From Argopecten irradians (Eukaryota > Mollusca > Bivalvia > Pectinida > Pectinidae): a DNA stretch of 64,000 bases. Made by a program: the position numbers and the translations under genes. Location: NCBI RefSeq assembly GCF_041381155.1, contig NC_091142.1, positions 4,405,778 to 4,469,777 of the forward strand, written 5' to 3'. Below, one piece after another: positions 7,416-63,500 of the stretch; positions within the stretch are counted from its first letter, which is position 1, and every line of letters starts with the position of its first letter. The notes below the pieces were generated by a model that was given only the letters and a program-made list of their open reading frames with translations, had not been told where the DNA came from and searched no databases.

Positions 7416-7480
7416 CTATTTATTCTTATAAGCAGTGGATTATTATTTCCTTGTTTATTTATTACAGACTCGTTTTAAAA

Positions 7481-28073: not shown

Positions 28074-31000
28074 ATGCAACGAAATGATGCAAACGATGTG
28101 AAGCAGCGTCGTGGCAGTGGTCCAAGGGACCAGAGTGGGCAGTCACCACAACAAGAGTCCGTCCAGCACTATGTGTTGACCGGCCAGTTACAGGCTATTA
28201 CGGGTACAGGAAGGCAGACCACACTAGGTACTGAATGGGGCCAGGACTGAAACACAGTTATAACTTTTAACGCACCTTCAGGAACCAATAAAATCACTTC
28301 ATTATAAACAATTAAAGTATAGTTCCTAATATTATAAGAACATCAGGGGGAATACATATTGCTACGTTATAATTATTAATTTGTTATAGGCGTGTTCTTT
28401 ATAGATGTGTTTTACTGTATGTCTGAATCAAGCCTGCTATAGTTGTTCCATTTTATCACTTAAAAACATGAGGTTTGTTTCATCTTGTGAAGTTTACCAT
28501 TTTAATTAAAATTTTATCGACATCACTATACATAATCAAGCACAACCATAGTTGGTCAGAAATCTGGTCTTACTCCAGGGCCTTGACCAGGTAACCTGTA
28601 TTGAGAATTGAACATTGATAATTAAAATTTGCACCTTTGCAAAAGTATACAACAGAGAACTTCAAATCTTAAATACTTTACCCACAGATCATAATATTTA
28701 CTGGTCATTGACACTGAATTGGTCATCCATGTACCGGGTATACAGTCCGTAACACTTAATACAAGCATTTGAAAGAAGTAATCATAGTTGAGACTTAAAC
28801 AAATACTGGTACTTCAGAAATTTAACTTTTCTTCATATTTTGAGGTCAAATTAATTAATTCACCTTTGAAAATTAATAATGAAGTATTCCAGCCTTTGAA
28901 TTAGATAGTTCAAATGTGTCTTCAGAAGTGATGGAGGCAATAAGGTTCTACTATGATAATTTCTCAATATCGCTTTTAAACCTTGGCTATAATTGAACAA
29001 CGGTAGATTTTGTTACTCGCTAATCACTTGGTTAGTTTAACTCAACAAAATGATAAAAAACAACACTAATACCGCAATCCTTTCAGTTTTGTCATTAAAT
29101 GTGGATGATTTTGACAGGTACAACTTGTTTGCTTGATAGGTTTGCTTCCATCAGCGTCCCCGGGTTCATCCTTGGGAGGCTCCAATGTGGCAACCCCAGT
29201 TGGTTCCAGTACACCTCTCCAGCACCAAACTGTCGTTGTGTCCTCGCAAGACTTGGAACGCATTTTCACTGGAGGAGGTACCCCTGGGCCTACCACGGTA
29301 GCAACCACACCTGCTCTGTCTGCTCAAGCTCTGCAGAGACAACTAAGTAGTCAAGGTGATTATTTATGCTATTCAAAATTTATACTAATTGTGCCTTAGA
29401 GGCTTGGGTACTGAGAGTCCATTAAAGATATTGATTACATATTTAATCCAATGTAATTAAAATTAGACTTGTAATTCCTCTCAACTACAATGCCCTACAA
29501 TACACTTCAATGTAAAACAACACTCTGTTTGGAGTTATCTCGGGACATACAAATAGCCATACAGGGAGTAGTCCGCTAAAACTGACCATAATCGCAGGCT
29601 CAAAATTCTGACTGATCGCCTGTTTATGGTCAGCTACCTACTGCTCTTAAAAAGTCGGGGATTGTAGTACAAATCTGGCGACAGCGATTATGGGACTTCT
29701 GTAGGTTTAATTGGGGTCAGAAAGGTATTGACAGTTAAAAGAAAACATTTGGCACTCACTTTAATACATGTCACATTCCAACTCATCACATAAATGATGT
29801 TATGTCCCTAGTTATGGTCGAGACGTCCTAGAATCAATGTTTGGGTAGCCATCTTTGAAGACTGAAAGTTAATTTTAACACCCAATCAGACAGCTGGGAT
29901 CGATTTCCGGTGAAATTGACGATTCTAATTGGCTGTTAAAATTAACTTTTGGTCTTCAAAGATGGCTACCGAAACACTGATTCTTGGACGTCTCGAACAT
30001 AACTAGGGACATAGCATCGTTAATGTGATGAATTGGGATGTGACATGTATTAAAGAGAGTGAAACACGTTTTCCTTTAACTTTAAAGGCATATTTGACCC
30101 CAAACCAACATGCAGAATTCTCATAATCGCTGTCGCCAGATTTGTACTACAATCCCCGACTTTTTAAGAGCAGTAGGTAGCTGACCATAAACAGGCGATC
30201 AGTCAGAATTTTGAGCCTGCGATTATGGCCAGTTTTAGCGGACTATACAGGGAGTTGTTAGATCTTGTATTGAAGCATATTGAAGTGGAGTGGAATTAAA
30301 AGTCTAATTTTATTTTGATTGATCCATGAATAAATTGATTCTTGTAGAGCATTGAATAGACAATGAAAGGGTTGATTACCAAAGCTAAAGGAGATTTAAA
30401 GACCTTTGAGCCGTGACTTCAACCCAACATAAACTTCCAGTGATAACACTAATGCTGTTATTGCTGGAGACAATTTCACAAGTTTACTTCATTACTGGAG
30501 CAGGATTTGAAATTATCTTCCTGATAAGACTATAAGAACTCATCTTAATTAATGGCTAGCTTAAAAGCTCACATTTAAATTATTAACATGGAAATGAACA
30601 AATGAAAGGTTTTAATGAATCTTGCATCAGATTTGATACCATTTCAACATTGATTTTTTTTTTTAAATTGTCAATAAAAAGCATGATGTGGGTATTAAAG
30701 GAAAGCAAGTTTTCATAATGCGGATAAAAAATAGTTTAAAATACCTAGCTTTGAATCCATAATCAATTTCCTGTATGAAATACATTTCACATATGATAAT
30801 ATTCCCTGTATGAAATACATTTCACATAATGATAATATTCAGGATTGCCCATTTTATAGTTGGCTACTTGCTGGTCATTACTCCTTGTTTATGTTTCCAA
30901 AGTTGATTACAAGCACCAAAATCATAATATTTCACATTGATTAAGGGTTGATTACCAAAGCTAAAGGAGATTTAAAGACCTTTGAGCCGTGACTTCAACC

Positions 31001-34000
31001 CAACATAAACTTCCAGTGATAACACTAATGCTGTTATCGCTGGAGACAAAATCTTAGCTTAATTAAAAAATGTTTTTGTGGACGTGGTCGAGTGTTTTAA
31101 AAATTTCACCAATTAAGCATTTGTTGATGTTTTTACAATGAGTGTACTTGTTTGACGAAAAAAAATAGCTATACTATGTCAGATTTCAAAATATGATAAT
31201 TCAAGTGAACAAGCACTTAATTTTCATTAACAGTACTCCCAGTTAAAGCTTGAATTATCTATGTAACTCTTGTAAAAAAAATGGAAATCAAGGCCAGTTA
31301 CAATAAATCTTTAGTTAAATTTTGATTTTCCCATTGATAAATAACTGAGAACGCAAGTCACTCTTTCTCTCTGCTTTGGTAGGTATAGTTGGTGTGATCA
31401 GCCCTGCTGTATCCAGACCAATAACTGGATCGTTCCCAGGTGGCGCCACTACAACCCTGATCAGACAGACAAGTGCCACTCCTTCCGGACCCGAGATGCA
31501 AATTCCACCAACACTGACCCTGGTGACTGCGACCACACCCAGTGGGGCCCCAGGAGTGGGGACTTTGAGCGCCAGCGGAGCCACAGTGCACCATCATGGT
31601 CTGAGCCCTTCACGGGGGACCCCACCAACCCCTCGAGCCAACCTTCAGCAACCATCTCTAAATATGAGTGTTCAACCTACTGGACAACAACAAACTCCAA
31701 AGACTAATGTTGGAGCAGGTGCTACAGCGCCAGCTTCTGCAACAAACCTAGCAGTGGTTGGGAAAGTTTTACAAGAAACGAAACCCAGCATAACACCTCT
31801 TGGCCTCACACATACCTTTCCCAACCTAACAGCACTAGCCAACCAATCCGCTATGGGGCCGTCTCCAAAGAAGAAAGTAAAGGTGGAGGAGAAAGCGCCC
31901 GCTACTGCAGAAATCGCCAACAGTAGAAAACTGATTTTAGACCAAAAGCACAAAGAAATGAAAGAGATAAAAGAGAACTACATTGAGTTCCTGACGGAGC
32001 TGTTCTTCCTCCAGAACAGTGGAAACATGATGGACTATCACACCTGGAAGAAGCGACCGACACCTCAGCTAGTTCACTTCCTGAAATCTGGGAATCTTGA
32101 TAGTGATGAGGAAGATGATCATGGACAAGAAAGAAAGATCAACAATGAAGTATGTTTTCTTGTTAAAATATCTACCTGTCCTTATTGATAGAAGAAAACA
32201 TTTTCTCTTGTGGGGGGGGAGCATGTTGTTCCCTAGAAAATTACATTTTGAAGCATTTAATACATTAAAAAAATATCTGAAAGATAATAAAATAATGCTG
32301 ATGCAATATAAGACAGACTTACACTGATCATATCTTTGATTCATCTGTAAGTGATTCCACTTCTGATTCTATGAAGTGAAATTAGACAGATTGAGATATA
32401 ATTCAGAATTAAAAATACTGATTAGCTAAAGATTATGAAAGCAAAGTAGCAAATAGATATAACAAATAATTTATTCAGGTTTTAAAATTGTCCTCAAGTT
32501 GTGAAAATGAAGCGAGATAGTTAACAGAGAGATGTTTTACTTCAGGTAAAGGTATTTACCTGCAGTGGTAGCAATGTTCCTTTGGCAACACCAGTGGCCA
32601 TTTCTACGACCCTACCACCGTCTGTAGCAGCCCTGAATCAACAAGGTAAGATATTTGCTTTGGTGGCATGGTGTGTATAGCTTCATGTTCACATTGTAAG
32701 AAAATAGTAAAGCTTGCATAAATATTCAACGCCATCTATCAATTTCCATATAGTAACCATAACCAGATGATTGATCATTTTGTTTCCATCTTATGAATTG
32801 TAATAATTATTAATCTTGAAATAAAAAAAGAGATTCACTCGTAAGCATGTTTTGTTAAACCAGCATACAAAATAGATTTATATATATTGCTGAGATTTTG
32901 TATAATTATTGAAACATTATCACGCTTTCAAAATTCTTTCATTTTCTGTCTTGTGTGCCTGAATATGTGACTGCTCATCAAGTTCAATGTTGCATGTTCT
33001 AAGATCAACTGTGTTGCACATTTCTACTTTTCATTTTTCACACATCATTTTATAATGCAACTACAAAAAAATATTCAGTAATGGACTTACTGTATGAATC
33101 ATTGAATATTGACCAATTCATTTCAAATTTTGAATAAAAAACATATCATTGCATATGTTTGCTATGTATTCCATTTACCTGTGAATTTCACCACATATTC
33201 AATTTACTGTGGTCCAGACCCATTAAGATATATTTGTTGAATCATTTACAAATGTCATGGCTTTCAAAAACTGAAAAACAGTGAAGTTCTGCTTATGCTT
33301 TCAAACAAGAGGCTTGTCTGCCAATGAAAGATGAATGATTGTGTCTGTTTTAAAGATATACAGTTCATATGAATTGAACAGATTTATAAATACTTAATAT
33401 GGTACACAAAAAATGGAAAACAAGCATGTTAGTATTTTATTGATTATTGTACTCTGTTTAATATCAGTAATTTCTGTTGAATGTTTAATATCAGTAATTT
33501 CTGTTGAATATTTTACTGTATGTTGACTTTGTGTTTTAACTAATATTGTTAAGTTCATTTTCCTGTAGAGCTGTCGACTAATTGTGACTGATTTGATGTA
33601 TAAATCAGTGAAAATATCTTAATATTTCATTATGAGCTTGAACTTTTCCAACACATGAGTTAGTGAAATAATCCATTATTCAATTTGTTAAAGATTTTTA
33701 GATCGAGAAATATTTGCATCTCTTGATGAGGTCAGAATTTTTTTTTAAATTTTACCACATTCTGACCTTTTACTTCTCATTATTATTTCTCTTCAGGAAT
33801 TTTAGTACTTAGCGAGTTTGAATAATATTATGGAAAACATCTGTTGCCCTGACAAAAGGGCAGCTTTGATAAGTGGTAATTAAATGTTAAAGATGAAAAT
33901 TGGACCATAAAATTTATGAGGGATAACACATTGATGATTTTTGTTATACTATTTTTATAATCACTTGAATTGTTTTTATTGCAGTCAGTACTTGTTTGCA

Positions 34001-36524
34001 TTCACTTTGAATTTATTCTTCAGTTTACATTATTTTAATTTATTGTACAGGCCTTCTGATTTTGATGTTGTGTGCTTCAAATGATGTTTGTATATACACA
34101 CTGTGCCTTCTGTTAATTTTCAATCTTTTTATTTTGCCTGTGCTCGGCTCACCGTGGATTGTAGCGAGTAGACTGTATTCCCAAACCTTTCTTTATTACC
34201 CTGCCTGTGGACTTATTTAGTTTATTACATGACTCTTTTTCATTAAGCATTCCATTATTGACCAGTAACAAAAATTATGCGGGACTAGTAAGGGGCCTTA
34301 TATATTTTAGCGTGTAACCTGAATGGGTGTTGTGGCTTTGCATCAATTAAGTATAGCTGTATTTGCGGTAGTTAAAAGAATGCTGTTTTAACAATGTGCT
34401 AAATTTGCTATACTTGTGATAAAACTACTTTCAAAAAGTCTCTGCTTTTGTTTATAAAATATATTACATTGATATATTATAATATATGCAATTGATGAAA
34501 TAATGATAATCTGCTTTAAATTTTCTTTGTTAATGGCAAAAAAAGGAATAAACATTAATATCGTGAAACATATCATCAAAATCTGTAATATGTAATACAG
34601 TAGTCTATTAATGATGATTAATCAGTTGGGAGAATGACTGTATCAAGGGTCTAGGTTACTGTTTTATTCTCCTGTCTCAGTTGTGCAAGCAAAAATGTCC
34701 CCAAAACCGCATATGTTTTCACAAAATAAGATTAAAGTACACAATGGAAATCAGAAAAGGAGGATTGAAGTCTGAAGCATCAGGGGCAGGGGGAGGGGAA
34801 TGATCTGACCTTTTTTAAAAACTTACGGCAAAGCCAAGACTGATTCATGGTCATTGTCACATCTTTACCTGTTTAAATTATATATGGAGTAGGAATCGTG
34901 GCCTATGGGAATAAAGCTGATGTATACATCAGTTTTGAGATACCAACACAACCTTCTGGTGATTATGATGCCACAAAAATCATATTGTAATTACTGGAAG
35001 GTAGAACTAATGTATAATGTATTCACTCAGGTCGTTCTTGTGTTTTAAAACCCTCGTATTTAGTAGGGCTGTTAACAGAGCTTCTGGAATAGAATTGGGA
35101 TAATCATGAATTTCCTTAACACTCTTTGACAAACATAGGTTTCTGACTTCTTTATATCCAGCTACTTTGGCAGCCATCTGTAGAAATTAGGAACCTAGAC
35201 CCTTGTTACTGTAAGATTGTAAGTGAATAAGGTGTTTTGGTCCTGCAGGTTTTGAAACTCGGCGGCCGGGAGGTCGACATGGTATGGTGTTTGGCCATGT
35301 ACAGCCGGCTTTGGCCAGCTCCTCCTTGTGCTCCAGTGTGACTTCCATGCCACACAACACTCCCATCTCCTCCTCTTCCTCCTCCTCCTCGTCCCTACAG
35401 TCCACAGTGGTGCCGGCACATATGGGCCCAACTCAAACAGGTGCTTACCAGTTCATATATATTTAACTCGGGATTTCCGCCAGTCCTGCCATCTCCATAG
35501 TAGCTATAGACTTTCATCGGCTTGAATTGGCTATGCTAAGGTTCTTTGTTATTGAATTGTAGTCTTTTTCATCCAAGTCATCTAGTGTCGTGTAATGCTG
35601 CAATATTTTTATTTTATTATGAAAAGGTAAAATAAGGATTATATCATGGCTGGTTTGATCAAGAATCGAATGATATGGTTACTATGCAGATGGTTCATCA
35701 AATTACTGTTCATTCCATCATGCCAATTCAGCCTCTTGTATCGTTTATTCTTGTGTTCTAGATCCATTTCTTGATAGCACATAATTTTGATACAATTCTA
35801 AATATTTACCGTCTACATACATGTCCATTGAAAGACAAATCATCTCTTGTGGTCTAGATCCATTTTGGGATCTACTTGATGGCTGTAGAGCATGATGGAA
35901 TGAATTGGGACACAGGCTAGCATGGGATATAGCACTTACTGATTTGAGGTCTGTGGCATGCTACCATACAGAGCCCAAGCTTCAATCCTGTACAGAGTAC
36001 AATGTCTTTCTTCTTCCCAAGCTCAGATCAGCAGTGTTAAGTCAGAGTTAGATGATAGATTAAAAATAAAAACTGTTTGAGAGAAAATGATAGTAAAATT
36101 GTCATATTTATCAAACTTAGAACCAGGTTTTAGGTGGGGATGTCAAAAAGTATGTTTCTCATTGTTGACAAAGGGTTGAAGAAGCCATACTGTATGTTAA
36201 GTGTCCAAGATACCAGCAGAAAGTCTTGCTGTAATACAGTAGTAAGTGACTGTCCCATGCTACAACCTGGCCCATATTGTGAATTTTTAATGATTGATGG
36301 TAATGATACAAAATATTTAGATTTTTGAATTCCACCAGAAGGCACTTTGTGTATATATTTTTGTATCATTTGTTAGTTCACATTGAGCTCGCCTTGTGCA
36401 ATAATATGAGCCTGTCATATCATGCTGTACAGTCTTATGTTATCCATTCTTCATTGTTCTGGTAATCAATAGACAGCATTTGTAAAAAAAAAAATTGTCA
36501 TTGGACAAATAACAGATTGATGAA

Positions 36525-36558
<34 letters not shown>

Positions 36559-39500
36559 CTCTGGGTTTTTTTTCTCTCAATTTTTCAAGATAGTGCTAAA
36601 TTGATAAGAATAGATTTAGCTTATATTTGATAAAGCAAAACTTTAATTAACGAATAATTATATTTGTGTCAAAGGCATACATTTGTGCTCCAGGAAATCT
36701 GATTTACTGAAAATACACAAATTTGTTCTATAAAATTGTCATTTTCAAAAATAAGTCGGGCTATTTAAACAATGACTCGGTTTTATCTGAAATCAGCAGA
36801 AGTCATGAGATTTCTTTTGATAATAATGACACTTGCAGTAGTGTTACATTGATTTGGTGTGATTTATAGCTCCTAACCAGAGGACAGCAGCCAGTACGAC
36901 CACCAACAGTACGACTACCCTGACAACGTCCACGGAGGCTGCTGTGTCTATGTCACTGTTACAGAGTCAGATGTCCAAAGCTGCAGATTCAAAGCCCCCC
37001 GCCGTACACACGACACACACAACAAAAGTCACACACACTATGTCAACGTAAGTACCAGCAAAAGTTCCCCGCCATACTTACAACAAAGTTCATATGAAAG
37101 TCACAACATAGCTATCACATGTAAGATAATCGGCATTTTTTTTGCTGCTCTACCAAAGGTCATAATTTCATTTTCATATCAGAAATTGCTTATTGTTGAA
37201 CGTTCTATCATAAGACAATGTTTCTTATCCTGCATTTACCACAAAATTCTGATTTGTTATTTGCTTATTAAGATGTAATTGATGAAAGAATAAAACTTAT
37301 GCCCATTTAAGGATAAATAATGTCTTTGAATAAATATTGACATTTAGTATTGCAATGAATTAATAGAAAAATGAATTTTACTTTATATAAGTCGGCTGTA
37401 TGTTACCGAGACATGAGTCACCAGGTCACTTGTCTGTAGTGTCGCTGGTGCTAATGTAACTCGGAGATAAACTGCAGCTCTATGCGCCGGTGCTCTTAGA
37501 TAGAGTGGCTGGTCACCAAATTGCTGGCTACATTCTATATCATCCTAATCAAAAGTCAGTAATTTAAACATGAGTTTTTTGTTAGAGCTGATCTAGTAAA
37601 AGATTTCCTTAACATTGATTTAAAGATTTTGTTTAGGAATTCCACTCATGGAATGTCAATTTCATAGGTGTGATAATAACGAATCCAACACTTGCTAAAA
37701 GTTATTTATTTGTAGTCCTTGGATCAGTTAGTATTTGAAAATTTCATAGCATTTTTAAGACATTTGTCTGATAAAAATGAAAATGAAGAAGTCAGATTTT
37801 AGGTCAAGCCTTCACTTTTAAAGTGGATAAAGAGCTATAGTTTTGTTGTGTCTTTTTGTATTTCTGAATGACAACACTATTTTGGACAAGAGTACGACAA
37901 TTACAAAGAGACTCAACAGGAATTTACTTAAGTCTTGCAAAACATAAATGATAAAAGATATTCACAACAAATTGCACATTCCAACATAAATATCCTTTGA
38001 TTTTAAGTTACCGAGACATGAGTCACCAGGTCACTTGTCTGTAGTGTCGTTGGTGCTAATGTAACTCGGAGATAAACTGCAGCTCTATGCGCCGGTGCTC
38101 TTATGTAGAGTGGCTGGTCACCAAATTGCTGGCTACATTCTATAAAAATTAGGGAGTATCTCAATATGTCCCTTAAACCCATAAATGGTCAAATGATAAT
38201 CCAAACCCAAATGTAAACAAAAAGTTGCCTCTTTATTTAAAGTTTAGACATGAAAACATGAGACTTGAGTAAATTTTTGGTGGGGGTATAAGTTTCATTG
38301 TGATTCAATAAAAGTAAGCTGAAAATTGAATTCTCAATTGGAATTGTGGTTCAAAGTAAATGATCCAACAAGAAACAATTCTTATCATAGATCACTACCT
38401 TTTGATAAATAATGTGGTTTATATTTTGACAGATCAAGCCAACCACAGTCAACAGTTCGTACCACCAAGTCTCCCCCAACATCCCCTGGTGGAACACCTC
38501 GTCTTCACACGCGACAACACACCATATCCAATATCTACGATGGTTCTATTGGTTCACAGGAAGCTATTGTGGAAAGAGCAAAGCAGGTCTGTGTATATTC
38601 CATTACTGTCTGGGCAGTAGGGGGTTCCAGGTATTCTGCCTGGTGTTTAGTAATGGACATTGTCAATCCACTTGACAGCAGTAGGGTCTGGATTGTCCGG
38701 TCACTTGCTGTACACTTTGTGTGAATGTGGAAGATAAAGCTCAATTCTGCTTCCATATATGGTCACCAATACCATCTGTGGCAATGGAAATTGGAACAGT
38801 TATTATATTATTATAAAGAATGAAACAAAGTTGTATAAACACCATTTATTTGCCCATCATGCTCTTGATGTTAGTTTTATTAATTTGATATGGACTCGAG
38901 AATAACGATAAGCCCAGCTACCTGTCACTTTCAATTCATTTATATTATCATCAGATTTGTGTTTTACTCCGTGCCAGTGCGGATTTAACTTTAAAATGAA
39001 TTTGCTGTCATTGCTGAGTGATATTCTCCTCTATTAATTGCAATATGCTTGATTTTACACAGGAGGCTCAGGTAATGCAGCGAGTGGCAGAACTTCGTAA
39101 GGAGGGCCTTTGGTCATCCCGCAGACTGCCGAAGGTGCAGGAGCCGCCACGAAACAAGAGTCACTGGGATTACCTGTTAGAGGAGATGCAATGGCTTGCA
39201 GCTGATTTCCAGCAGGAGCGCAAGTGGAAGAAGGCCGCTGCGCGAAAGGTATCTAGTGTTTTATTAATTTCATAATCTTTCAAAATAATTGGTTCCACTT
39301 AGATTCTTAACATTTACCATTGTGAAATGGGAACTTGATATAGACATCATGAAATCGTGAGGCCTATAATGTTACCTACATCCATTCTGTTCTGTTCCTG
39401 CACCCACTTGATGGAGCATTCATGTCTTTTTCCAGTCATCATTTCTATGCTTTTCAAGGTCCTCTGGCTAGGTTTTCCAAGTATACAACAAAACATGAAT

Positions 39501-42500
39501 GTATCGAGACATAGAGTCACCAAGTTACTTACCTGTAGTATCTTAGGTGCTAATGTAACTCGGATATAAAAGCAGCATTTTGCCCTGATCACTCTTCTTA
39601 TAGAATGATCAGTTTCCTATTGGCTGGGTACATTTCATGATAGAAAAAAACTGAAATAAGATAAAATCAAGAAATTAAAAAAAAAACTGAAATAAGATAA
39701 AATCAAGAAGTAACCAACTGAAATTTCACAATTCTCTCTTGATACTTATTATCAGTTATCTTTCTTGCTAATCTTTTTCATTTTGTTGACTAGGTTTAAG
39801 TATGCAGAAAGTACTTTGATCGTGAATATAATGAAATTGCTTTGTTTTTATGCCCTGCTATGAATGGACAGGGATATAGTGGTTCCCACATCCATCCTGT
39901 CTGCATCCCATTTTGTTATACGGAAGTGGGGGCATTGATATCTTGCAGACATTTCTAGTATTCTTTTTCAAAATTCTCCCTAAACAAGAATACTGATTAG
40001 GTTTGCCAAGTACACAACAAAACAAGTTTACTTTTATACCATTGTTTGCACTTCTCTTTAAAAATGTTATGTTCAAATGAAAACAAAATGTAAAAGTTTC
40101 GAGACATAGAGTCACCAAGTTACTTGCCTGTAGTATCTTAGGTGCTAATGTAACTCGGAAATAAAAGCAGCAGTTTGCCCTGATCACTCTTCTTATGGAA
40201 TGATCAGTTTCCTATTGGCTGGCTACATTTCATGATAGAAAAATAGATGAAATAAAGTCATTGAATGTTTCTAAATACATGCACAAAGGCTAAAACTTTT
40301 GAATTGTCGACCAGGTGGCAAAGATGGTGTCCAAGTATTTCCAGGAACTTGAGCAGAAGGAGATTAGAGCCGAGAAAGAAGAAGCCCAGAAACTGAAAAG
40401 GATAGCAGGACAAATAGCAAAACAGGTCCGCGAATTCTGGACAAATGTAGAAAAGGTGAGCTACATAAAGACTGAATGTTGAGTTAATATTCCTCAGTTT
40501 CTTTATGCTTTTGAAATTAATGGAATGTGTAATCAGTTTCAAGTTTCCTTAGTAAACAGAACAGCAACAAAAATTCCTGAAGGTGTGTGTTTGCTATTAA
40601 AAAACATTTTGATCATTGCAGGTTGTGCAATATAAACAACAAACAAGAAATGAGGAAAAACGAAAGAAGGCTTTAGATCTCCATCTGAACTTCATTGTTG
40701 ATCAAACAGAGAAGTATTCCACCTGGTTAACTGAGGGGTTGAAGAAGGACAGCAGAACAGGATCATCTATAGCGTCTGGGGGCACCACTCCAGACCACTC
40801 GATTGATGGCGGGGATCGTAAGTGTCTTATCAGTTCAAACTAATGCTGTTCTCAAATATTTTCAAATAAAAGATTCCTTTCTGAATCAATATTTTCCTCA
40901 AAATGATGTAACCCAAACTTTATTGAAATCGATAAACTGTTTAAAATGACAAGTGTCTGGATAAAAATTAGACAAATGCTTCATTTTCTTCACATGTTAT
41001 TAAGTCAAGAATATTTCCATATCTCTGTCTGTATAGGCGAGTTTGAGCCAGAAGCAGATGAATCTGACGATGAAGAAACCATAGAAAAAGCAGAAGCCGA
41101 TATGGATGAGGTAAGGTACAAAACTGTCGAATAACACAGTATGCATGAATATCAAGATGCAGTGAACCAAAACTTGGAGTCCTTTTAAATCAAGTCGGAT
41201 AACTTTGATTGATGGATCATACTCTTGTTCTTCATAGGTGAAAATATGTTTTAAAAAGACAATATAATTGTAAATGGTGATGTCCGATATCTATAGTATT
41301 CTATACTAATGTGTTAATGATACTTATTAAAGACATCAACCAAGGCAGAGTTAGATGCACTACAAAAGGAGGGAGAAGTTCCATTAGAGGAATTGCTGAA
41401 GTCACTCCCCCAGGAGGTCTTATCTGGAACAGCCAGTCTTACTGAGGAGGTCAAAGAGGAAGTAGATGATCATAAGCAGAATAAGGTAAGATACTCACAA
41501 CTATCACTCCAAAAAATACACGATATAGAAGGCTACCCAGAAAAGGGTAAATATTGGTATGTTAATTATGCAAGAAAAGTACTCAAGAATGAATAACAAA
41601 TAATAGAAACAAACCCTGAGCTCACAACTGTTGGTGAGATCTTATTTTCACTGAGAGAATATAAATCCAGGGAATATAAAGTAAATTCCTACTTAAAACA
41701 CTTTAATTGCTGCTGGTGCAATTAAAACTCCTGTCGTAGGAAACAAAACAAAAGATCTTTGGGCAATGTGTAATATATATACATATATGTAAAGGTTATA
41801 AGATAAAGAAGATTTATATGATCCTACATCTGTAGCGTATCCTGTTAAGTTGCCTTTTACCAACTTTCGACTCGTGCAGCACATGCAATAATATAATGTT
41901 ATAATGTAATACTACACTGCCATCAGAGCAAAATCAATTTGAACAATAATTAAGGTATTTACTTTTAGCACATGGCAATCATGCAGTATTCTATTCAACT
42001 AGGGGCAAATTATTGAGATATTTCTTCAGGATACAATTGATGATTAACTTAGATCTTGTGTATTCTGATTTCTGAAAACAAATAAGAAGTTCACGCTTTT
42101 TGTTGTTGATTCTTGTGTAAAAAATTTTGCTCTTGTTCTAAGTGTATAAAAATGCTGATAATTGTCTTGAACTTTAAAGCAATCCTTTTCAACAGAAACA
42201 GTAAAATTTTACTGGGGGCCTCCTTTTGATCTCTTAAAGTATATATTCAAATTCAATATTCATTTGAGAATCGTGTGTGTGAATTTCAGAAATATATTTT
42301 CAAATATAAAAACACTAACCCTGAGCTCACAACTCTTGGTGAAATCTGATGTGTTCACCGAGAGAATACAAATCCAGGGCATATAAATTCCTACTTAAAA
42401 CACTTTAATTGCTACTGGTGCAATTAAAACTCCTGTCGTAGGAGACAAAATAAAATAACTTTGATCATGGTGTACTATAAGAATATACAAAAATGTTGAG

Positions 42501-51500: not shown

Positions 51501-54500
51501 GCAGGTAAGCATACCCTTTCTTACGCTGGGTCTTCAGATGTGAAGGAGGAATTATCAACTCTGAGTAATATTAAAGTGCAGAATTGATTCTGAAGCTGTC
51601 ACAGATTTAACAGCATTTCAATATATCACTAAGATAAACAACCAATCGACTTCTTCACCTTTGTAGACCCCTTTGGGCTCTTCTAATTCAAGGGATGGAA
51701 TGGTCCGTTATATTTACTCAGGGGTTAATGGTAAAGAGATAAGCTGCATTCAATATATACATTTTAATAGTCTATCTGACATTTTGGAAACATTGCAACA
51801 TTTAAAGGCCCATTACCTTTCCAAAATGGCTTTTAATTTTTAAAATGGGAATGTAAAACGAGATCGATAATTTTGTAGAGTCGCAAAAGTTATTAACTCA
51901 TCTTTACTACTACACTCATCATCATCTTCAGAAAAATTTGATTAAAATAATAAAATGTTAATCTTCATAACGCAGGTCGTCTTATGTTTCCCGCCGTCGT
52001 CCTAAATACCGCACAGTAGTTGAATACTACTGCGCCAGACGACAAAACAGCAAAATGACTCTCCACTGTTATCATATATTTCGGAGAAAATCTTCCATAT
52101 GTTTGGTCTTGTTAGCTCATTTTAGGCCATGGATAGGCATTTTCTTTTGTTATTAATATTTTAAGAAACCTTTAAATTTTGCTTCGGAAAGGTAGTGGGC
52201 CTTTAATGAGACATGATAGCCCACGTTGTCTGCTGTGATACTGTGGATTGAGTAAGTCTCTTACATAAAATTCTGACGATAGTATCAGATGCAGTACACT
52301 GTGTTTAGACTAGAATCAGAAACAAAATATTATATGTAATTAACCAATTAATTGTGTTCTTATAAATATATTTCACACCTCAACTTCACTCGTCTATACT
52401 TTTCTATGGCTATCGTCTTAAGACTCAGTTATGAGTTGATGAGCCTCTCTTGGAATAAAGGTTTTAAAACTTTCCAAGAAATCTTAACAAAATCCTTTTC
52501 TTCCAGTAGTGCCAAGGACACAATCTACAGTGACCATGACAACTAGCAGTGTAACACAGCCACTATCGGTCACCTCTGTGTCCAGTGTTAGTGTGGCCAG
52601 CACACTGACCAGTACTGGTGTGACCACCCCACAGGCTAAGGTTGGACCAATCACCACAGCAACGGTCAGCCTTCCCTCCTCATCCGGTCAGGTGGCCACC
52701 TCTCAGCCAATCACAGTACAGATACAGCAGACGGATCAGGGAGCACGTCTTATGATACCAGCGGGCCAGCTGTCCCAATTACCTGGTGAGTTACAGTTTT
52801 TGTCCGGGACTTTTATATGAGAGTCTCTTGATACAGCTTGTCAACAATGGTCTGAATCCCCTTGGGATCTAGTTGAAAGACTAAAAAATTCATCAATAAA
52901 TTTCGAATGTAAATGAGATAATGAATGAATTCAGGTTGCTAAACTTTGCTGTTATCTTGTAGTTGTTATTAAAAAAAAGATGGTAAAATAACGTATCAAT
53001 CTGGTTTGGCTGGCCAAATAATAGAACCATAGTTGGCAAGGGTATAACCTAGATTGCTCCTTTGATGAATAAAAACATAGAAATTGACAATGATGTCATG
53101 AAAACATTGATTTTCTCTTTATATTTAAAGTGAATAGTCGGGCAAAGGAAGGCTAAAAGTTGGTAAAATGGTGTTGATATATCCAGTATAATTTCTTATG
53201 AAATAGGAAAATAAAACTTTCATCAAAATCACTCTGTATGCGAAGAAATTGATTTATATTGCAGGAATCCTAAAACGTCCTCCCGGCTGGCTATGTCCGT
53301 GTTGACATTCCCATGCAGCCTCGCTTTCAAAATTTATTTTTAAAACAGTGCTAAATGTACACAGGGCTTTTCCATAATTTCAATGGTCAACACTTGACAA
53401 TGTTAGCAAAACTTGACTGTCGTTTTGATATATAAGGGATATTGGAAGGAACATTTAGACTGGTTTCATTTTCTAACTATTCCCTTTAAATGACAAAGTC
53501 AGCAGTACAATACCGAGACATGAGTCACCAGGCCACTTGTCTGTAGTGTTGTTGGTGCTAATGTAACTCGGAGATAAACTGCAGCTCTATGCGCCGGTGC
53601 TCTTATGTAGAGTGGCTGGTCACCAAATTGCTGGCAACATTCTATATCATCCTAATAAAAAATCAGTAATTTAAACATTGCCTCTTCTTTAGAGATGATC
53701 CATTAAAAGTTTCACCTGAACCTTGATTTTATGGTTTTGTTGAAGAATTCCACACATAAGAATGATAGAAATGGGTCCAACCCTGAAAAAAAGTGGATCA
53801 GTAAGATATTAGATATGTCATGGCAGCACTGTAAACAGAGTTTCTTTGGATGCTACACAGAGAAATTCTTTTCAATATACTCTACTCATGAAAGTAGTTT
53901 TACAGTATCTGATAATCTTTTGGCACTTTTGAGACATTTGATCAGATTAAAACTGAACTAAATAGATTCAAGGTCTTCACCACTTCCGAGTGGATACAGA
54001 GCTGTAGTCATGTGCTGTATATTTGTGCTTCTGAATTACTTTACAAGACTATTACAAAGAGACTCAGCACAAATTTACTCCGGCCTCGCAAAATATAGAT
54101 GATAGAAGACATTCACAACACAATTGCAAATCCCAACATAAATATATCTTAAGGAATTCTTTTGATTTTAAGTTACCGAGACATGAGTCACCAGGCCACT
54201 TGTCTGTAGCGTCGTTGGTGCTAATGTAACTCGGAGATAAACTGCAGCTCTATGCGCCGGTGCTCTTATGTAGAGTGGCCGGTCACCAAATTGCTGGCTA
54301 CATTCTATAAAATCCCAATTAGAACTAAATAATTCAGACATGAGCTTATCTTTAGAGTTTATCAGAATTTCAATTTCATAGAAATGAATCAAGCCCTGGA
54401 CAAAAGTATAGTTCTTGGACTGAAATACTAATCAACTTTCTTTGGGACTACTAAATTTTGTGACTCCCATTTCAAGATAAGTTTGCGAGATAAACATTAG

Positions 54501-57500
54501 ATTCAAAAGTTGAATAGAAAATCCTATCAAGTTTGCGAGATAAACATTAGATTCAAAAGTTGAATTGAAAATCCTATCAATATATATGGTGTCAATATTC
54601 ACAGAGATAAACTTTTGATCTAATTTTGAAATTTACTGTATCTATTGTCACTTTTGACATTTGACCAGAAAATACTTGAACCACTTCCGTGTAGATATGT
54701 GTTGTACATTTGTACTTTTTATTTGTACATTGTAGAGTTCCACTATTACAAAGCAACTCAACACAAATTTACTCCAGTCTCATGAAACATAGAACACATT
54801 CACAACACATTGCCAATTTCAACATTTCGGTAATTGATGTTAAAGTTACTGAGACATGAGTCACCAGGCCACTTGTCTGTAGTGTCGTTGGTGCTAATGT
54901 AACTCGGAGATAAACTGCAGCTCTATGCGCCGGTGCTCTTATGTAGAATGGCTGGTCACCAAATTGCTGGCTACATGCAAATTCTTAAACAAATTACAGG
55001 TAAATTTCGGACAACTTTTTTCTTTTTTCAATTCGTATGTTTTATGTTTACAGCTGGCTTTATCCAGATTGTTCAGACGTCCATGGGGCAACAGATTATT
55101 GCTTCTTCAGTGGCAACAACTGCTCAGCAGCGAGTGGGCTCTCCTTCAATTACAACCACCAACAGTCGGGCAACTACCACCAGTAGTGCAATAGGTTGGT
55201 ACATATCAATTCTGTAGGGCTTTGTGATAACACAACTTTGTCATTCTGAACTTAATGAACGAAGATTATATTCTTAGTATGGAGGTATGTTGGCTGGAAA
55301 ATCAACCATCCTGCTCACAAGTGCAGTTTGGTCTTTGCAACCAGCCTAGATTACTACCAAACAATGTAAATTAAATTTACAGACTGTCTTATTGGTCTGT
55401 AAAGTTTTATTTGATTTTTGGTGACAAAATACAAAAATGATGTTATTTTGATAGCCAAATTAAAATTTCATTCTTTAGATATGCAGTTACATTTAGCTGT
55501 AATTTTCTGTAATAAAAAAAAATTTTGACATGCTCAAATTGTGAAGTTTTACCAAAGTTTATAGATTGAAAATGTTTTCATTGGAATCTATGTAAACTAT
55601 TAAATAGCTTTATATAACATCATAATTTAGTGTAAGGTTTTTGTCAGGATTAAAAAAAAAACGGGATAAAATGTGTTAATACCTTGAAACTAATTGAAAA
55701 AGGACATGAAAATCTCTTTCCCCAGTGAATGGTTTGCCAGCCATTACCACCATCGCTGGGTCTGCCGCCAGTACTACACTGACAACTGTAACATCCCAAG
55801 TCAAGCCGGCAATGTCTGTACAGCTCCCGCTGGCTTCTACTCAGGCTACACTCAAACCTGTCATGAAGGTCTCGCCAATGGTAACAGCCTCAACGTCCAC
55901 CACAAACGGTAAGGAGTCCTAATCAGAATGTATTTTGTAATCTCTAGAATTACCCTAAATGTAAACTTTATTTGTATGCTATCTCATAGACACCAAAACT
56001 TATGCTGTTCTCATTTGATAGTACAGTTACCAAAACAGAATCTGTGGTAGATTTGAATGAACTTTTCATAAATTTGTTGATAAAAGTTTATTAAATGGAT
56101 CCTTCATACTGTTCAAGAGATAACCCTTAGGTAACCATATGTTACAAAAATATACAAAGTGTTTCTCCGAGATGACTCCTGTATAACTACTTGCTTGATG
56201 TTTGAATACAATTAAAGTTTGTTCAAATAACACCGCTATTCAAACCAATTTTGTTGATGAATCTATAAAATTGTTTGTAGTGGTGAAAACTGGTGTGTCC
56301 ACCACAGCATCTAGTACGGATATCAAGACAACGACTGGTCATTCCACTCGCTCTGCTGTGAGGAAAGTCAAACAGCGAAACAAGTCGGAGCTCATACTTG
56401 TAAGTTTGTGTTTAATTTATTAGCTCACCTAGTCACAAAACCATTTGATGTTCAATACTTCTGAGTGACTGCAAATCTTCATGTTTATTAAAGTATGGTT
56501 TTATGACCGAAAATTGATGATATTGCTTGTTATTGATAGTAGCAGACTTGGAAAATAATACAGCTCGATGTAATCATAACACATACAGGACTCTTGGTCA
56601 TTTGCTAACATAGTAAAACAGTAGTTGCTAGGCAAATAAAATATTTGATAACCATGTTTTTCCTGTTCAGTTCTGTTTTACCAACATTTTAGTCTTATTT
56701 TATTTCTTTGAAAAGTTGTTTAATTGAAAAATGAAGAATTTGGTTCGTTGAAAAGTTGTTTAATTGAAAAATGAAGAATTTGGTTCGTTTATAATTCTCT
56801 GTTCGATTAACAGCCAGAATCATTAAAGAAAATGAATTTCTTAAAAATCAGATTATAATGTGTGGTCATAGCATTGTGGCTACAGGTTGTTTTGAGCATT
56901 TCTGATAAATCACAATTATTATTGTTCCAGGATTCTTTGTGTGATAGGAGAGATTGCCGACGCCAAGAAAAGTTGGAGTACATTGCTCGTATAAACAAAC
57001 TACATTGTGAGCGAAAGCCTGTGTATGGGCAGGACCTGCGTTGTACTGTGAATGTGATGAAGACCTGCGTTCGTGATAATACTTGGCCCTCGCTCGGCCA
57101 TATACATTGTACAAACATAAACTCATGGAGTAATCCACACCGTCCAGAGATCTTCTGGAATCAAACCAAAGTGCTTTCAAATCTGGTCCATACCCCTTTA
57201 CAATACCTGCAGGAACTAGAAGACATTTTATCTAGGTATGTCTCAATGAAAATTGGGCTTACTGCTGTGAATATCGACTCGCAGATAATAGTGTATTGAT
57301 CCATTAATGATCCATTTATGATATCAGTTTGGTGTTTTCCCACTGGTGTAGTTCATAAAAAAAAAGTTGAAATCTTTTGAATTGAATATTTTAAGTGTGA
57401 AACTAGAAAAGATGCCAAAAGGATTAGTTTAATAAATGCCTTTTGCAAAAGGTGAATCTTTTCTTATACATTTAATATTGTCACAAGAGGTTTAATTGGA

Positions 57501-60500
57501 ACCATTAATATTATATCTGAACAAATCAAACAATTTTTCTTTTAGTTTTCATTCAATGGTATTAAAAAAAAACTGATCATAAAAGCACCTTGCCAATGTA
57601 ACAAATCTGTTTGATTAAGAAGTACTGGTGTTTGTAGACAATTGATGATAATGGTTGTGTTCCTCCTCTGTATATCAGGTATGTGTTTGCTACACCACCT
57701 GTTGTCTCACCGTGCATCAAAATGCATGTGTCTCATCCTCGACCCTCTAATGTGATGAATGAGCAATGGCGGGACTTCATCCTCCACAAAGACGTGTCGC
57801 CCAAGGCGAGCTGTCTACACAAAATATCCACCAATAGGATGGTGCAGTTCCCAGAGCTTCGACTAATACAGTACGACTGTGGTAGGTGTTCAGTGGGTTA
57901 GAGGAGAGATGTGACGCTTGAAGATTTCACCATCAAAACATCTCATTCTTAATTCAACTTAAACAAATAGTAAATCTCTATTTAGAATAAATCTCTATTT
58001 AGAATAAATCTCTATTTAGAATAATATCTATAAATGACCATTGTTGTGATTTTAAGTTTCTTGTTTATTTTCATTTTTGTGAAAAACTGGACATCTGACT
58101 GATTAATATTATAACTTATGCTTGTTGTATCTTAGTACTCAAGGCACGTCTTTGCTATTTAAATCAGACACTTACAATTATATTTTTCATTACAGGTAAA
58201 CTTCAGACTTTGGATCTGCTTTTGAGGAGATTGAAATCCGGGGATCACCGTGTTCTAATATTTACACAAATGACAAAGATGTTGAACATTCTTGAATCTT
58301 TCCTTAGTTATCATGGGCATCGCTACCTCCGTTTGGATGGAACGACCCGTGTAGAACAGAGACAATTCCTCATGGACAGGTTTAACGCTGATAAGCGTAT
58401 TTTCTGTTTCATTTTATCCACACGTTCAGGTGGTATCGGTGTGAATCTGACAGGCGCTGACACTGTGATATTTTATGACAGCGACTGGAATCCAACAATG
58501 GATGCACAGGCTCAGGACCGATGTCATCGTATCGGACAAACTCGTGATGTCCACATCTACAGGTTAGTACACATAGCAAAAATAATTTGTTCTTCCTGAA
58601 TTCTGTGATTACTAAATTAGATATGCCATGAAATGGGGGAGCATATATATAGTGTTAACCATGTCTGTTGGACGCATCCTGTCAAGTCTTCCTTTCTGAA
58701 TGCATGGAAGCATTGACGTTTTAAATTCATTAATGGTTGCATACATGCATAGTTAGCTCTGTCAGCTGCTGAAGCAGAGTTTGACATTATGGCTGTAGAT
58801 ATCATCCATACTTCTGTGTGCAATATGGAATTAAACATCAGCCAAGAGCAATACCAACGTACGAACCATGCAATTGTTTCCATCATTGTATGGCCCCAAA
58901 AATTGGTTACAAATATTGTAAAAAATGAAGTATCCAAATATCTCTCTACAGCTTAAAAATAACTTCGAGTTACTTAAGACAGATAGAGCTTTTTAGAATA
59001 TTATCTATACACTACTTTGTTGTCACCTTTGATTAACAATTTTGAACTTAGTGAAGATCTAATGTACAGTAAAACATGGTTATAATGAACATCTGGGGAC
59101 TAGCAAAATGGATATGTTATAAGCATAGTTCATTATTCAAATAATGCATATATCTAACAGGAGCCTTGACAGGGAATTAAAAGCACTATGTTGCAAGCGT
59201 GTTCGTTGTAAACATGTTTTACTTTTAAAACATGTTTCTTTTATATAGAATGGATATGTTGATCGTGAAGATACTATAGGTATATTTAAAGCATCATTTC
59301 TAAAAACTTGGAACTTAGATCAAGATTCTTGGCTGTTGATCCACTGCACCACTGTATGTTGTTCAGTTCTACATTCAGCCATAAATTAACAACTGTGTAT
59401 ATGACTTAACAGTACCCAGTGTCTGTATGGTCTCGGTGCACAGGTAATACATACTGCATAAACCCCTTTAATTTCACAATAAACTTTCCCAGCTTTAGAA
59501 TTTAAATTAATATGATATATTATATCAAGGGGTGAGGTAGCTATTTATTGACCCCGGTAATTTCCTAATGATGCTTTTAGCCATTTACTTACTGTCACAT
59601 TCTCTCTTTTGTAGACTGATCAGTAAAAAGACTGTAGAAGAAAACATCCTGAAGAAGGCCAACCAGAAGCGTATGCTGGGCGATATGGCCATTGAAGGAG
59701 GCAACTTCACCACAGCCTTTTTCAAGGAGGTATGGAATTATTGCTTTAGTGTTGAAAATAATGTCCTTTAATGTTAATTCACTTTCTAAAGCAGTCAGTG
59801 TGGGTGGCCATCTTAGCTGATCAGTAATAGGCTGAATTTTGCCTATTCTTTTTTTCCATCAAGAAGAGATACCAAATGGTTTGATGCTGTGAATAAGATG
59901 ATAAATTTGCATTTGTCATCATTCTTTGTCATCAATACACCAGTACTTCTACAAATCCTGAAATGTTTCTAATCATTATTGTTTGATAGAACACCATCCA
60001 GGAGCTGTTTTCGGAGCCATCAGGGCTGGATTCCCTGGTGGAACAACCCAAAGTGATAGAGGTCAAGACAAAGCCACAGGTGGTGGATGTCAAGGACAGC
60101 AAAGCCCTCGGAGGTGGGGACGAGAAGCCAACACAGTCAGAGAAAAGCATTGTAGCTCAATTTGAGCAGGTATGAAGAACATTTATCAACTCCTGTTACA
60201 AATAAAATTTCGTGTTTTAATGCCAGATATTGCAATTGTCGACTCAAATTCTTCCAAATCAATTTTTCTTTCATATCATTTTACTCTTAATTTACATGTA
60301 ATAGTAATTGTACTAGTGAAATATGATCCCTAGTACTTGATTCTAGCAGTCACTGGATAGATCTGATGTCTTGTGAGATGGAATTAGATCGCCAAACTGC
60401 CCAAAATTTGTCAATCATCAGTGTAATCATTAAAAGAAAAAGAAAAATATGTAGTGAAACTTTTGATGTTGGATGATGGAAAGTATAGACATTTAAGCCA

Positions 60501-63500
60501 ATGTTATCTTTTAGGCTCTTGGAAAAGCTGAAGATGAGACGGACGTAGTGGCCGCCAATCTAGTGAAGGCAGAACAGAAAGCAGAGCTTGCCGAGTTTGA
60601 TGAAAACATTCCATGGGACGAGCGAGAGGCCGAGAAACGAAAGGAAGAAGAGGAAATGTCCAAGGCAGAACAAGAGCTAGCTATGTTGGACAAAGAGGTA
60701 GTGTACGAACGTTTGGTCAACCTAAGATTCTTTGTTTAGATCAGTCATTGGCCAACAACCATAGCAGAAATACTAATATTTTCTGCTTCTTGGCAAGCAA
60801 GATTTATTGACCTCCGATCTGTTTTCATGTTAGGTCAGGTTTTGTTGAAAACCCCATAATAGATATTTTACATTAAAATGATTCCCACAACCAAATGTTT
60901 AAAATTGATACTATATCTTAACAAATTGATTTGACACTAACCCTGAGCTCACAACTCTTGGTGAAATCTGATGTGTTCACCGAGAGAATACAAATCCAGG
61001 GCATATAAATTCCTACTTAAAACACTTTAATTGCTACTGGTGCAATTAAAACTCCTGTCGTAGGAAACAAACGATGATAATTGAATTGATCTTAGGCTAA
61101 TTATAAGTCTGTTAACATCCATAAACTGCGACTTTAAACAGTTTGCATGGGCGCCAGGACCCCAAACTTTTATTTAGAAGTACTTCCCATAGAAGTTCTC
61201 TTTATAAATCGCATTAAGTGGTTACCCGATGAATCATTGGACAAAAGGGATAATATGTACAACAAAAATTGTCCTTTTCATGGTTCTATTGCGACTATGA
61301 AAACAAGTTTCTACAGAACAAAAGTAGTAAATAGTGAATGATTTGTTTGGGAGTCCCAAGGTCTAGAAGATATTTCCGTTTGAACTTAATGTATTCTGTT
61401 GTATATTTCAGCTGTCTCCAATTGAACGTTTTGCGGTGGCTTTTATGGAAAATGAGATGAAACCTGATGATGATTTGGAGATTTCTGTGGTAAGATGATC
61501 TGTGTGATTAAAGTTATTGTTCTACTTTTGAGAAACCAGTTAATCTCCTCTTGAGAAACCATTTTATAGAGCAGTACATGTAGCATGTCTTTATAAGTAA
61601 TGAAAGTATAAAAGGAATACTTACATTACAATAGTCATAGACTAAAAACTGATTAAACTGTATTTAACATCCTGAACTACCAGTGGTACTTTATATATTT
61701 GTTAAATCTTAATGAAATATTTGAATTTCTTATAGAAAATAAATATTTTACATTTGTACTGAATGTCTGTACCTGTATCAACAGGAGGAGATCGCCAACT
61801 CTAAGAAGGACTGGGAGCTGGCTCGATTAAAGGCACTGAAGGAGGACGAAGAACGACGCCTTGAACTAGAGGAGGATGAAATGCTGTATACCTATCTTCG
61901 TGATGACTCCTTCAACCAGGTTAAGAAACGTTCCAACAAACAGTCTAAAAAGGCCCGTGGCAACCTCACTAGTCCTGCACGCCAGGCAGCTAGTCGAAGG
62001 TCAGGCGGCAGGGGGCGTGGTAAAGGTGTACGTGGCCAGAATGTGGCCGAGAATGTAGTTATAGGGGAAGAGGGGGATCCAGTCGAGGGCGATATTGTTG
62101 TGGATGATGAGACTGGTAGTGAGCCATTGTTAGATAGATTAAAAGCGGCAAGGAGTGCCATGAAAAACCTGGCAGCCAAACTCACTACTTCACCCAAGAA
62201 GAAAATGCCTGTTAAGAATATAACCACGGCAGAGGATGTAGAAAAACCATCACCTAAACCAGTTGCTGCCACCAAAAAGGTGACGGCTCGCCAAGCTAAG
62301 GCTGCATTACAGAAACAACTTAAAGGAACCAAGGTTCCTCTGAAGGTTCCTACTCTGACCCCTCCCAAGGTCACCATCCCTACTGTCTCCACTTCAGGCA
62401 CACCTCCAAAGCTTGATAAAAAGACAGCAGGTCTCACTGTGCAGCGGCTGGTTGCCAAACAGGCATTACAACAACACTTGTCTAATGCAGTATCGCAGGG
62501 AAATTCAGAGTTCACCTCCTCTCCCGCAAAGCTGCCTGGATTGAGCACGCAACCTCAGCTGCTTACCCCATCCCAGTTACAGCACCTTAAGCAAATTATT
62601 TCAAAGGCACACCACAACATCAAGCAGACGCCTGTCTCTGGGAAGGGTTCAGTCTCTCAGGGTGTGCAGGGTTCCGCCGACCAAGCAACATTCACCTCCC
62701 TCCCCCAACAGGCTATGTTACAAGTGACCCAACCCCGACCCTATCAGATAGTAGCTCCCCAGGGTCAGGTCCCTCAGACCATACGTCATGTTCTCCCTCA
62801 GGGCATCAATGCACAACCCATACAGCATGTGGTTAAGCAGATGCATGCGGTTCCCCGGGGCCAACTTCTGTCCCAAGGCCAACCCCAACTCCAGTTTGTT
62901 TCTCAGACCTCTGGAATACCAGGCACTCAAGCCATACAACTTGTGGCTCAGAATCCGCAGCTGGCAGGTCAAGGAGTACAGCTAGTCACACAGGGAACTC
63001 CAGGTCTGCCAGTTGTGACTCAAACCCAGCAGATTCTCACGCAGACTCCAGGGGTGCAGCAGGTAATTGGTGCCCAAGGAGCGGGAGGCCAGCCCACGAT
63101 CTCCTTCATCAAGGTCAGTGGCAACTCCACAGTAACACAGCAGCCTGTTCTACAGTATTGTGTGAACCAAATAGGTGGCCAAGGCGTGCGACTACAGGCA
63201 GCCAACCCTCAGATTCAGGGAGCTAATCCTCAGCAGCAACAGCAGGGTGTTGTTTTCCTACAGATTGCTGGAGGGAAGGCTATTCCAATGTCAGTGGGTG
63301 GATCGCCTGTAACAATGCCAATGGCAAGGATGATTGGCAACAAAATAATTCAGGGCAACACCATCCCCACTCAGAGACAAGTTGTTACTACTGCTGCCCA
63401 AGCCCAACCAATCCAAGTCATTCAAAATCAAAACCCAGTAACCACTTCAGTAACAACCCCTCGTCTGTCCATGCCATTGTCTCGGTTCCAAACTCCCAAT

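Follow-up and report, generated by a model that had tools for sequence, protein, structure and literature searches.

The 64,000-nucleotide stretch analysed here (the window) comes from Argopecten irradians (RefSeq assembly GCF_041381155.1, contig NC_091142.1, positions 4,405,778–4,469,777 of the forward strand) and includes the last 35 exons and 34 introns of a chromatin-remodeller gene, the introns of which carry repeated elements resembling box H/ACA small nucleolar RNAs (snoRNAs). An earlier note, made from the sequence alone, had described 21 such two-hairpin elements, all intronic, all in the sense orientation and each with an ANANNA hinge, and we re-found every one of them, spread over 11 introns (1, 5, 7, 11, 18, 19, 21, 22, 23, 24 and 33; see Table 1 for coordinates). 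Four copies lie in intron 11, the maximum per intron that the note had given, with three each in introns 21 and 24 and two each in introns 1, 5 and 7. The count of 21 is probably too low, with three further single-copy candidates bringing the introns that carry units to 14 of 34, and the introns thus hold at least 21 units and probably 24.

The exon borders of the host gene were picked by eye at AG/GT, and the spliced model has an open frame of 2854 codons with no stop in the window, the stop codon falling at about 64029, just beyond its end. Judged by its sequence, the host is an SRCAP orthologue because both conserved parts of the protein, which also has an HSA domain, score much higher with human SRCAP than with EP400 when searched by phmmer against PDB (970 versus 495 bits for the first part and 489 versus 258 bits for the second). 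EP400 was ruled out as the host by these lower scores, and the chromatin-remodeller assignment of the earlier note is therefore kept as SRCAP and not as EP400.

Table 1. Predicted features of the SRCAP locus (window coordinates; F1–F5 are the sequence groups described in the text)
Feature	Intron	Coordinates	Strand	Evidence
SRCAP orthologue, last 35 exons/34 introns		29140..64000	+	GT..AG splicing, PDB phmmer, HSA domain
F1 copy a	1	30367..30473	+	ANANNA and ACA, alignment
F1 copy b	1	30943..31049	+	99% identical to copy a; fold
F2	5	37405..37535	+	SNORA3-like 5' hairpin; Rfam SNORA3 41.6 bits
F2	5	38010..38140	+	Rfam SNORA3 40.3 bits
F2	24	53512..53642	+	Rfam SNORA3 42.7 bits
F2	24	54175..54305	+	Rfam SNORA3 36.5 bits
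F2	24	54848..54978	+	Rfam SNORA3 35.3 bits
F3	7	39502..39633	+	ceN100-like 5' hairpin; Rfam ceN100 35.1 bits
F3	7	40097..40228	+	Rfam ceN100 35.9 bits
F3	21	49307..49438	+	Rfam ceN100 35.4 bits
F3	21	49861..49989	+	Rfam ceN100 32.9 bits
F3	21	50349..50480	+	Rfam ceN100 34.9 bits
F3	22	51142..51273	+	Rfam ceN100 34.8 bits
F4	11	41613..41746	+	Alignment, boxes, genome search
F4	11	42318..42448	+	Alignment, boxes, genome search
F4	11	42688..42818	+	Alignment, boxes, genome search
F4	11	42953..43081	+	Alignment, boxes, genome search
F4	33	60940..61070	+	99.2% identical to 42318 copy, 18.6 kb apart
F5	18	47219..47342	+	Consensus fold, boxes, genome search
F5	19	47816..47937	+	Consensus fold, boxes, genome search
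F5	23	52204..52325	+	Consensus fold, boxes, genome search
Added candidate, SNORA1-like, single-copy	6	38664..38801	+	Two-hairpin scan, weak Rfam match, 3' pocket
Added candidate, SNORA33-like, single-copy	30	58787..58914	+	Rfam 47 bits, scan −25.7, 3' pocket
Added candidate, single-copy	25	55290..55429	+	Strongest energy in two-hairpin scan

Layout and sequence groups of the elements

The three added units share the intronic position and the sense orientation, both usual though not universal for animal box H/ACA snoRNAs, and the ANANNA hinge with the 21 elements, in which the hinge reads ACATAA, AGATAA, ATATAA, AAATAA or ATATCA. In 21/21 elements the conserved block ends in an ACA on its 3' side, as had been claimed, while the claimed spacing of three bases depends on ends inferred from sequence. 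Alignment divided the elements into five groups with sharp ends, F1 to F5, with 2, 5, 6, 5 and 3 copies, and the four families proposed earlier are recovered only when F2 and F3 are merged; these two have a common 5' hairpin and different 3' pockets. Two hairpins are present in the consensus folds of F2 + F3, F4 and F5 and in the single folds of F1 (where the 3' hairpin has no pocket), and some single-sequence minimum free energy folds of F2 and F3 copies were rearranged across both domains. Membership of the small Cajal body-specific RNA class was rejected, as no UGAG was found in a terminal loop (by eye and not by computation).

When both strands of the window were scanned for two-hairpin units, 201 of 4174 ANANNA..ACA candidates passed, and 17 sense rows were stronger than any antisense row (the best of which had −29.9 kcal/mol), more than chance would give. 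Fourteen of these rows represent 13 of the listed elements, two are the then unlisted 55292 and 38666, and the last, at 56845, has its ACA in exon 28. Eight of the 21 elements (both F1, all five F2 and the F3 copy at 39502) were missed because of the single-hairpin filter of the scan, and the candidate at 58789, at −25.7, ranked below two antisense rows.

The Rfam model search that had been proposed as a check gave H/ACA matches below the gathering scores for F2, F3 and two of the added units. SNORA3 (RF00334) matched all five F2 copies (E from 3.5e-5 to 2e-3, best score 42.7 against a gathering score of 51) and ceN100 (RF01607) all six F3 copies (E from 0.0025 to 0.013, best 35.9 against 80), and because these are below the gathering scores we call the two groups SNORA3-like and ceN100-like and not members of the families. 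SNORA33 (RF00438) could be aligned over its full length at 58789–58914 (47 bits, E 1e-4, gathering score 74), and SNORA1 (RF00408) matched 38701–38801 (27.2 bits, gathering score 70), with an E of 1 in the window search and of 0.0097 on 314 bases. Where the SNORA1-like unit begins at its 5' side is uncertain because of two overlapping upstream hairpins, the Rfam match itself beginning at 38701. It should be noted that these two additional hairpins of intron 6 (38593–38720, identified by eye) adjoin and overlap the unit, and that the second is followed by an ACA with no ANANNA noticed by eye.

F4 matched Rfam models at chance level only (SNORA75 with E 4.1, and SNORA27 with E 1.4 on one copy), the candidate at 55290–55429 matched no Rfam model with an E of 1 or below, and a covariance model built from F2 + F3 recovered no copy in the window beyond the 11 already known, with the next matches at 12.2 and 8.9 bits. 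Human SRCAP and EP400 presumably host SNORA30 and SNORA49, respectively, as the earlier note stated, although no paper settling this was among those listed in the open-licence literature, and neither RNA is among the 25 window matches listed in the Rfam search at E up to 10.

Predicted guide targets

The pockets of box H/ACA snoRNAs are placed some 14–16 nt from the H or ACA box, and those of the units here were compared with human and yeast ribosomal RNA (rRNA). The yeast letters agree with a published modification table at 50/50 positions (PMC8307265) and the human letters at 195/196 positions given in PMC6182160, with the exception, 28S 4975, lying in the 28S 3'-end stretch which was anchored by hand. 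An exact 32-base 28S pattern had no matches in the scallop genome assembly and other 28S patterns had none in viral and genome contigs. In a known-site test using shuffled arms, the pockets of 14 of 16 hairpins (the F1 3' and 38664 5' hairpins being left out) were set against 99 human pseudouridine (Psi) rRNA contexts, and 5/14 matched a human Psi site at p<0.05.

The clearest of these is the 3' pocket of the 38664 unit, which forms 6+10 pairs at 28S Psi4441 (0/1500 shuffles), and for which only the 99-site test counts; the entry of this site in a smaller yeast-based set followed a scan of all uridines. Psi4441 corresponds to U4471 in a newer 28S numbering offset by 30 bases (according to PMC9941101), and U4471 is described as the SNORA1 site in PMC12288042. 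For the 3' pocket of the 58787 unit the best of the 99 known sites is 28S Psi4966 (p 0.010), although an adjacent base outscores it in the all-uridine scan and the register is uncertain by one; depletion of human SNORA33 is reported to abolish 28S Psi4966 (PMC10454564). Psi4441 and Psi4966 (to within one base) are thus well supported as the predicted targets of the SNORA1-like and SNORA33-like units. The F1 5' pocket matched 28S Psi1847 (p 0.041) and the F2 3' pocket Psi4606 (p 0.061, suggestive only), and there was no known-site match among the 99 human contexts for the F3 3' pocket, the F4 5' pocket, both F5 pockets, the 55290 3' pocket or the SNORA33-like 5' pocket.

Origin of the copies and competing explanations

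We consider it very probable that the elements represent true box H/ACA snoRNA genes encoded in introns, that is, dyskerin-bound guides amplified in cis and released from the introns of SRCAP. The H/ACA layout, the sense placement in introns and the local amplification described earlier all hold, and the class is further supported by the Rfam matches below threshold and by the complementarity of some pockets to known Psi sites. On this reading the SRCAP pre-mRNA would be transcribed and spliced, the two-hairpin units would bind dyskerin and its partners, and the bound units would be shielded from exonucleolytic trimming of the debranched intron, leaving RNA ends three bases past the ACA; the internal-loop pockets would then pair with rRNA and guide the isomerisation of a single U to pseudouridine. 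Repeated copying inside one gene would have built up the locus, with duplication at the DNA level accounting for at least part of the growth of the five groups, while the SNORA1-like and SNORA33-like guides are single in the SRCAP gene.

A number of points weigh against this. None of the 24 units reached an Rfam gathering score. Base pairs changed on both sides number 4/33 in the F2 + F3 consensus, where they amount to one F2-versus-F3 contrast counted over copies, 2/41 in the F5 consensus, where one of the two sits in a place at which the third sequence aligns poorly, and 0/32 in the F4 consensus. The target rRNAs were human and yeast sequences and not those of the scallop, and 9/14 pockets had no match at p<0.05 among the 99 human contexts, while in the all-uridine test only the 38664 3' pocket exceeded its 12 shuffles. 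All pocket arms were hand-drawn, and the p values for the F3 and F2 5' pockets at 28S Psi3899 (0.011 and 0.137) and for the 55290 5' pocket at Psi4263 (0.0093, with just two pairs on one side) are optimistic because the arms of these pockets were fixed after the all-uridine scan. The F4 3' pocket matched Psi4522 with p 0.163 over the 99 sites and 0.032 in the smaller yeast-based set. We regard the predicted targets for F1, for the F2/F3 5' pocket and for F4 as weak; 28S Psi3899 is equivalent by sequence to yeast Psi2416, which is guided by snR11 (PMC8307265).

The copies were compared with their surroundings in 37 pairs, giving 74 flanks of 250 bases (the F4 pairs 42318/42688 and 42688/42953, with overlapping windows, were left out). 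Element identity was 90.7–99.2%, and flank identity was no higher than 70% in 61/74 values, with unrelated introns in the window at 63.5 ± 3.2%, and 75–86% in 7/74. The elements are thus far better preserved than their surroundings, through either selection or gene conversion. Some pairs still share flank, such as 38010 and 54175 (introns 5 and 24), whose upstream flanks are 80% identical, which points to an origin by DNA-level duplication for at least some copies. We also observed a repeated stretch upstream of three F2 copies (37896–37969, 54047–54120 and 54741–54814, the latter two being 82% and 62% identical to the first), which traces duplication between introns 5 and 24.

As a variant of this reading it is possible, if less so than not, that these real H/ACA RNAs are mostly redundant in the amplified families and have been homogenised by gene conversion, so that guiding would depend only on the single-copy units and on one member of each family. 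Conversion would fit the copies at 42318 and 60940, which are 99.2% identical with flanks at baseline; redundancy among snoRNA copies is known (as discussed in PMC11028025), and no F5 target was found among the 99 known human sites. However, no H or ACA box has been lost in any of the 21 copies, and the pocket arms are nearly constant within families, which fits selection on the copies.

A mobile element, be it a short interspersed nuclear element (SINE), a miniature inverted-repeat transposable element (MITE) or mobile snoRNA retrocopies, that multiplied in SRCAP by chance and has no guide function is very improbable. The F1 copies, 99% identical with unrelated flanks, are what element-only copying would leave, and snoRNA retroposition has been described (in PMC3412847). 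Against this, neither target-site duplications nor A-tails were seen around F1 (by eye and not by computation), and DNA searches of the whole 846-Mb genome with F2, F4 and F5 queries (covering the 19/21 copies of F2–F5, with very common words skipped) returned 11 matches for F2 (five F2 and six F3), five for F4 and three for F5, every one in the SRCAP gene and on the + strand. The test for dispersed repeats which the earlier note had asked for thus rejects a dispersed SINE or MITE for F2–F5, and the flanks at 75–86% identity, indicative of DNA-level duplication, as well as the much stronger conservation of elements than flanks, also speak against mobility. The slightest chance we give to a cis effect on SRCAP splicing, in which the units would serve as structured repeats and not as guides, for although 14/34 introns carry units (added candidates included) and cis functions of intronic snoRNAs are discussed in PMC11028025, the SNORA1-like and SNORA33-like pockets match the published targets of their namesakes and the H and ACA boxes are kept in all 21 copies.

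Relation to known snoRNA loci

The 5' hairpins of F2 and F3 are like those of SNORA3/SNORA45 and Caenorhabditis elegans ceN100 in the AGAGUCACC..GGUGCUA pocket core and in the closing CGAG..CUCG stem; the 3' hairpins are unlike, more so in F3 than in F2, and here there are 11 copies in one gene. The unit at 38664–38801 has the 3' pocket UGCUUCCAU..GUGGCAAUG in common with the SNORA1 consensus, while its 5' hairpin aligns poorly. The unit at 58787–58914 aligns with SNORA33 over the full length, its 3' pocket CGUACGAA..CCCCAAAAA fitting the region of 28S Psi4966, and lies in SRCAP whereas the human SNORA33 host is given as RPS12 in PMC10454564.

This kind of locus is already known, and it is the copy number per gene and per intron which is unusual. 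Drosophila minifly (mfl) has four C/D snoRNA copies, one per intron (as described in PMC1821038), and RPL13A of Suberites sponges has two cis-duplicated H/ACA copies in neighbouring introns (as described in PMC3412847). Both are like the SRCAP locus in having multiple snoRNA copies within the introns of one protein-coding gene, and differ in that 21–24 H/ACA units are found here with up to four per intron. Animal hosts are described as mostly having one snoRNA per intron (PMC11028025, PMC1821038), and two snoRNAs in one intron can give a long non-coding RNA capped by a snoRNA at both ends (sno-lncRNA), with SLERT as the H/ACA case (PMC11028025). Such RNAs are only predicted for SRCAP, where six introns have two to four units, and introns 1, 5, 7, 11, 21 and 24 offer a clear test because paired units can yield sno-lncRNAs. 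The matches listed in the open-licence literature included no publication about snoRNAs of bivalves or about SRCAP as their host.

A more far-reaching proposal, which we think doubtful, is that SRCAP has become a dedicated pseudouridylation-guide gene in this lineage, in which multi-unit introns would escape the one-per-intron rule by being released as H/ACA-capped sno-lncRNAs or cut by an endonuclease, F2/F3 would have gained a new 3' guide by divergence, and guide output would be tied to a histone-variant remodeller. The locus is a dense natural experiment on the multiplication and divergence of guide RNAs, in which the same 5' guide is joined to different 3' guides, and it opens to testing both how multi-unit introns are processed and whether SRCAP recurs as a snoRNA host across animals. 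Annotators should note that all 24 units fall below the Rfam gathering scores.

Other repeats were seen in the host introns. In intron 1 a long imperfect inverted repeat (29536–30246, with its outer limits set by eye) adjoins the F1 copies and looks like a foldback or MITE insertion, and its inner part has a MIR8706 match below threshold on the minus strand (29814–30000). In intron 14 a 51-base unit is repeated about 14 times in an array open in several frames and unrelated to the snoRNAs (44333–45050), and in intron 15 a 119-base unit occurs twice in tandem (45456–45693, with 86% identity between the two), a pair which was considered as a snoRNA and rejected as its fold is without the H/ACA layout. 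Over the next 20 kb downstream, Rfam gives a single match with an E of 1 or below, an irrelevant psbNH (0.52), and upstream of the SRCAP exons there is an otopetrin-like open frame of 527 codons (7451–9034, 74.6 bits).

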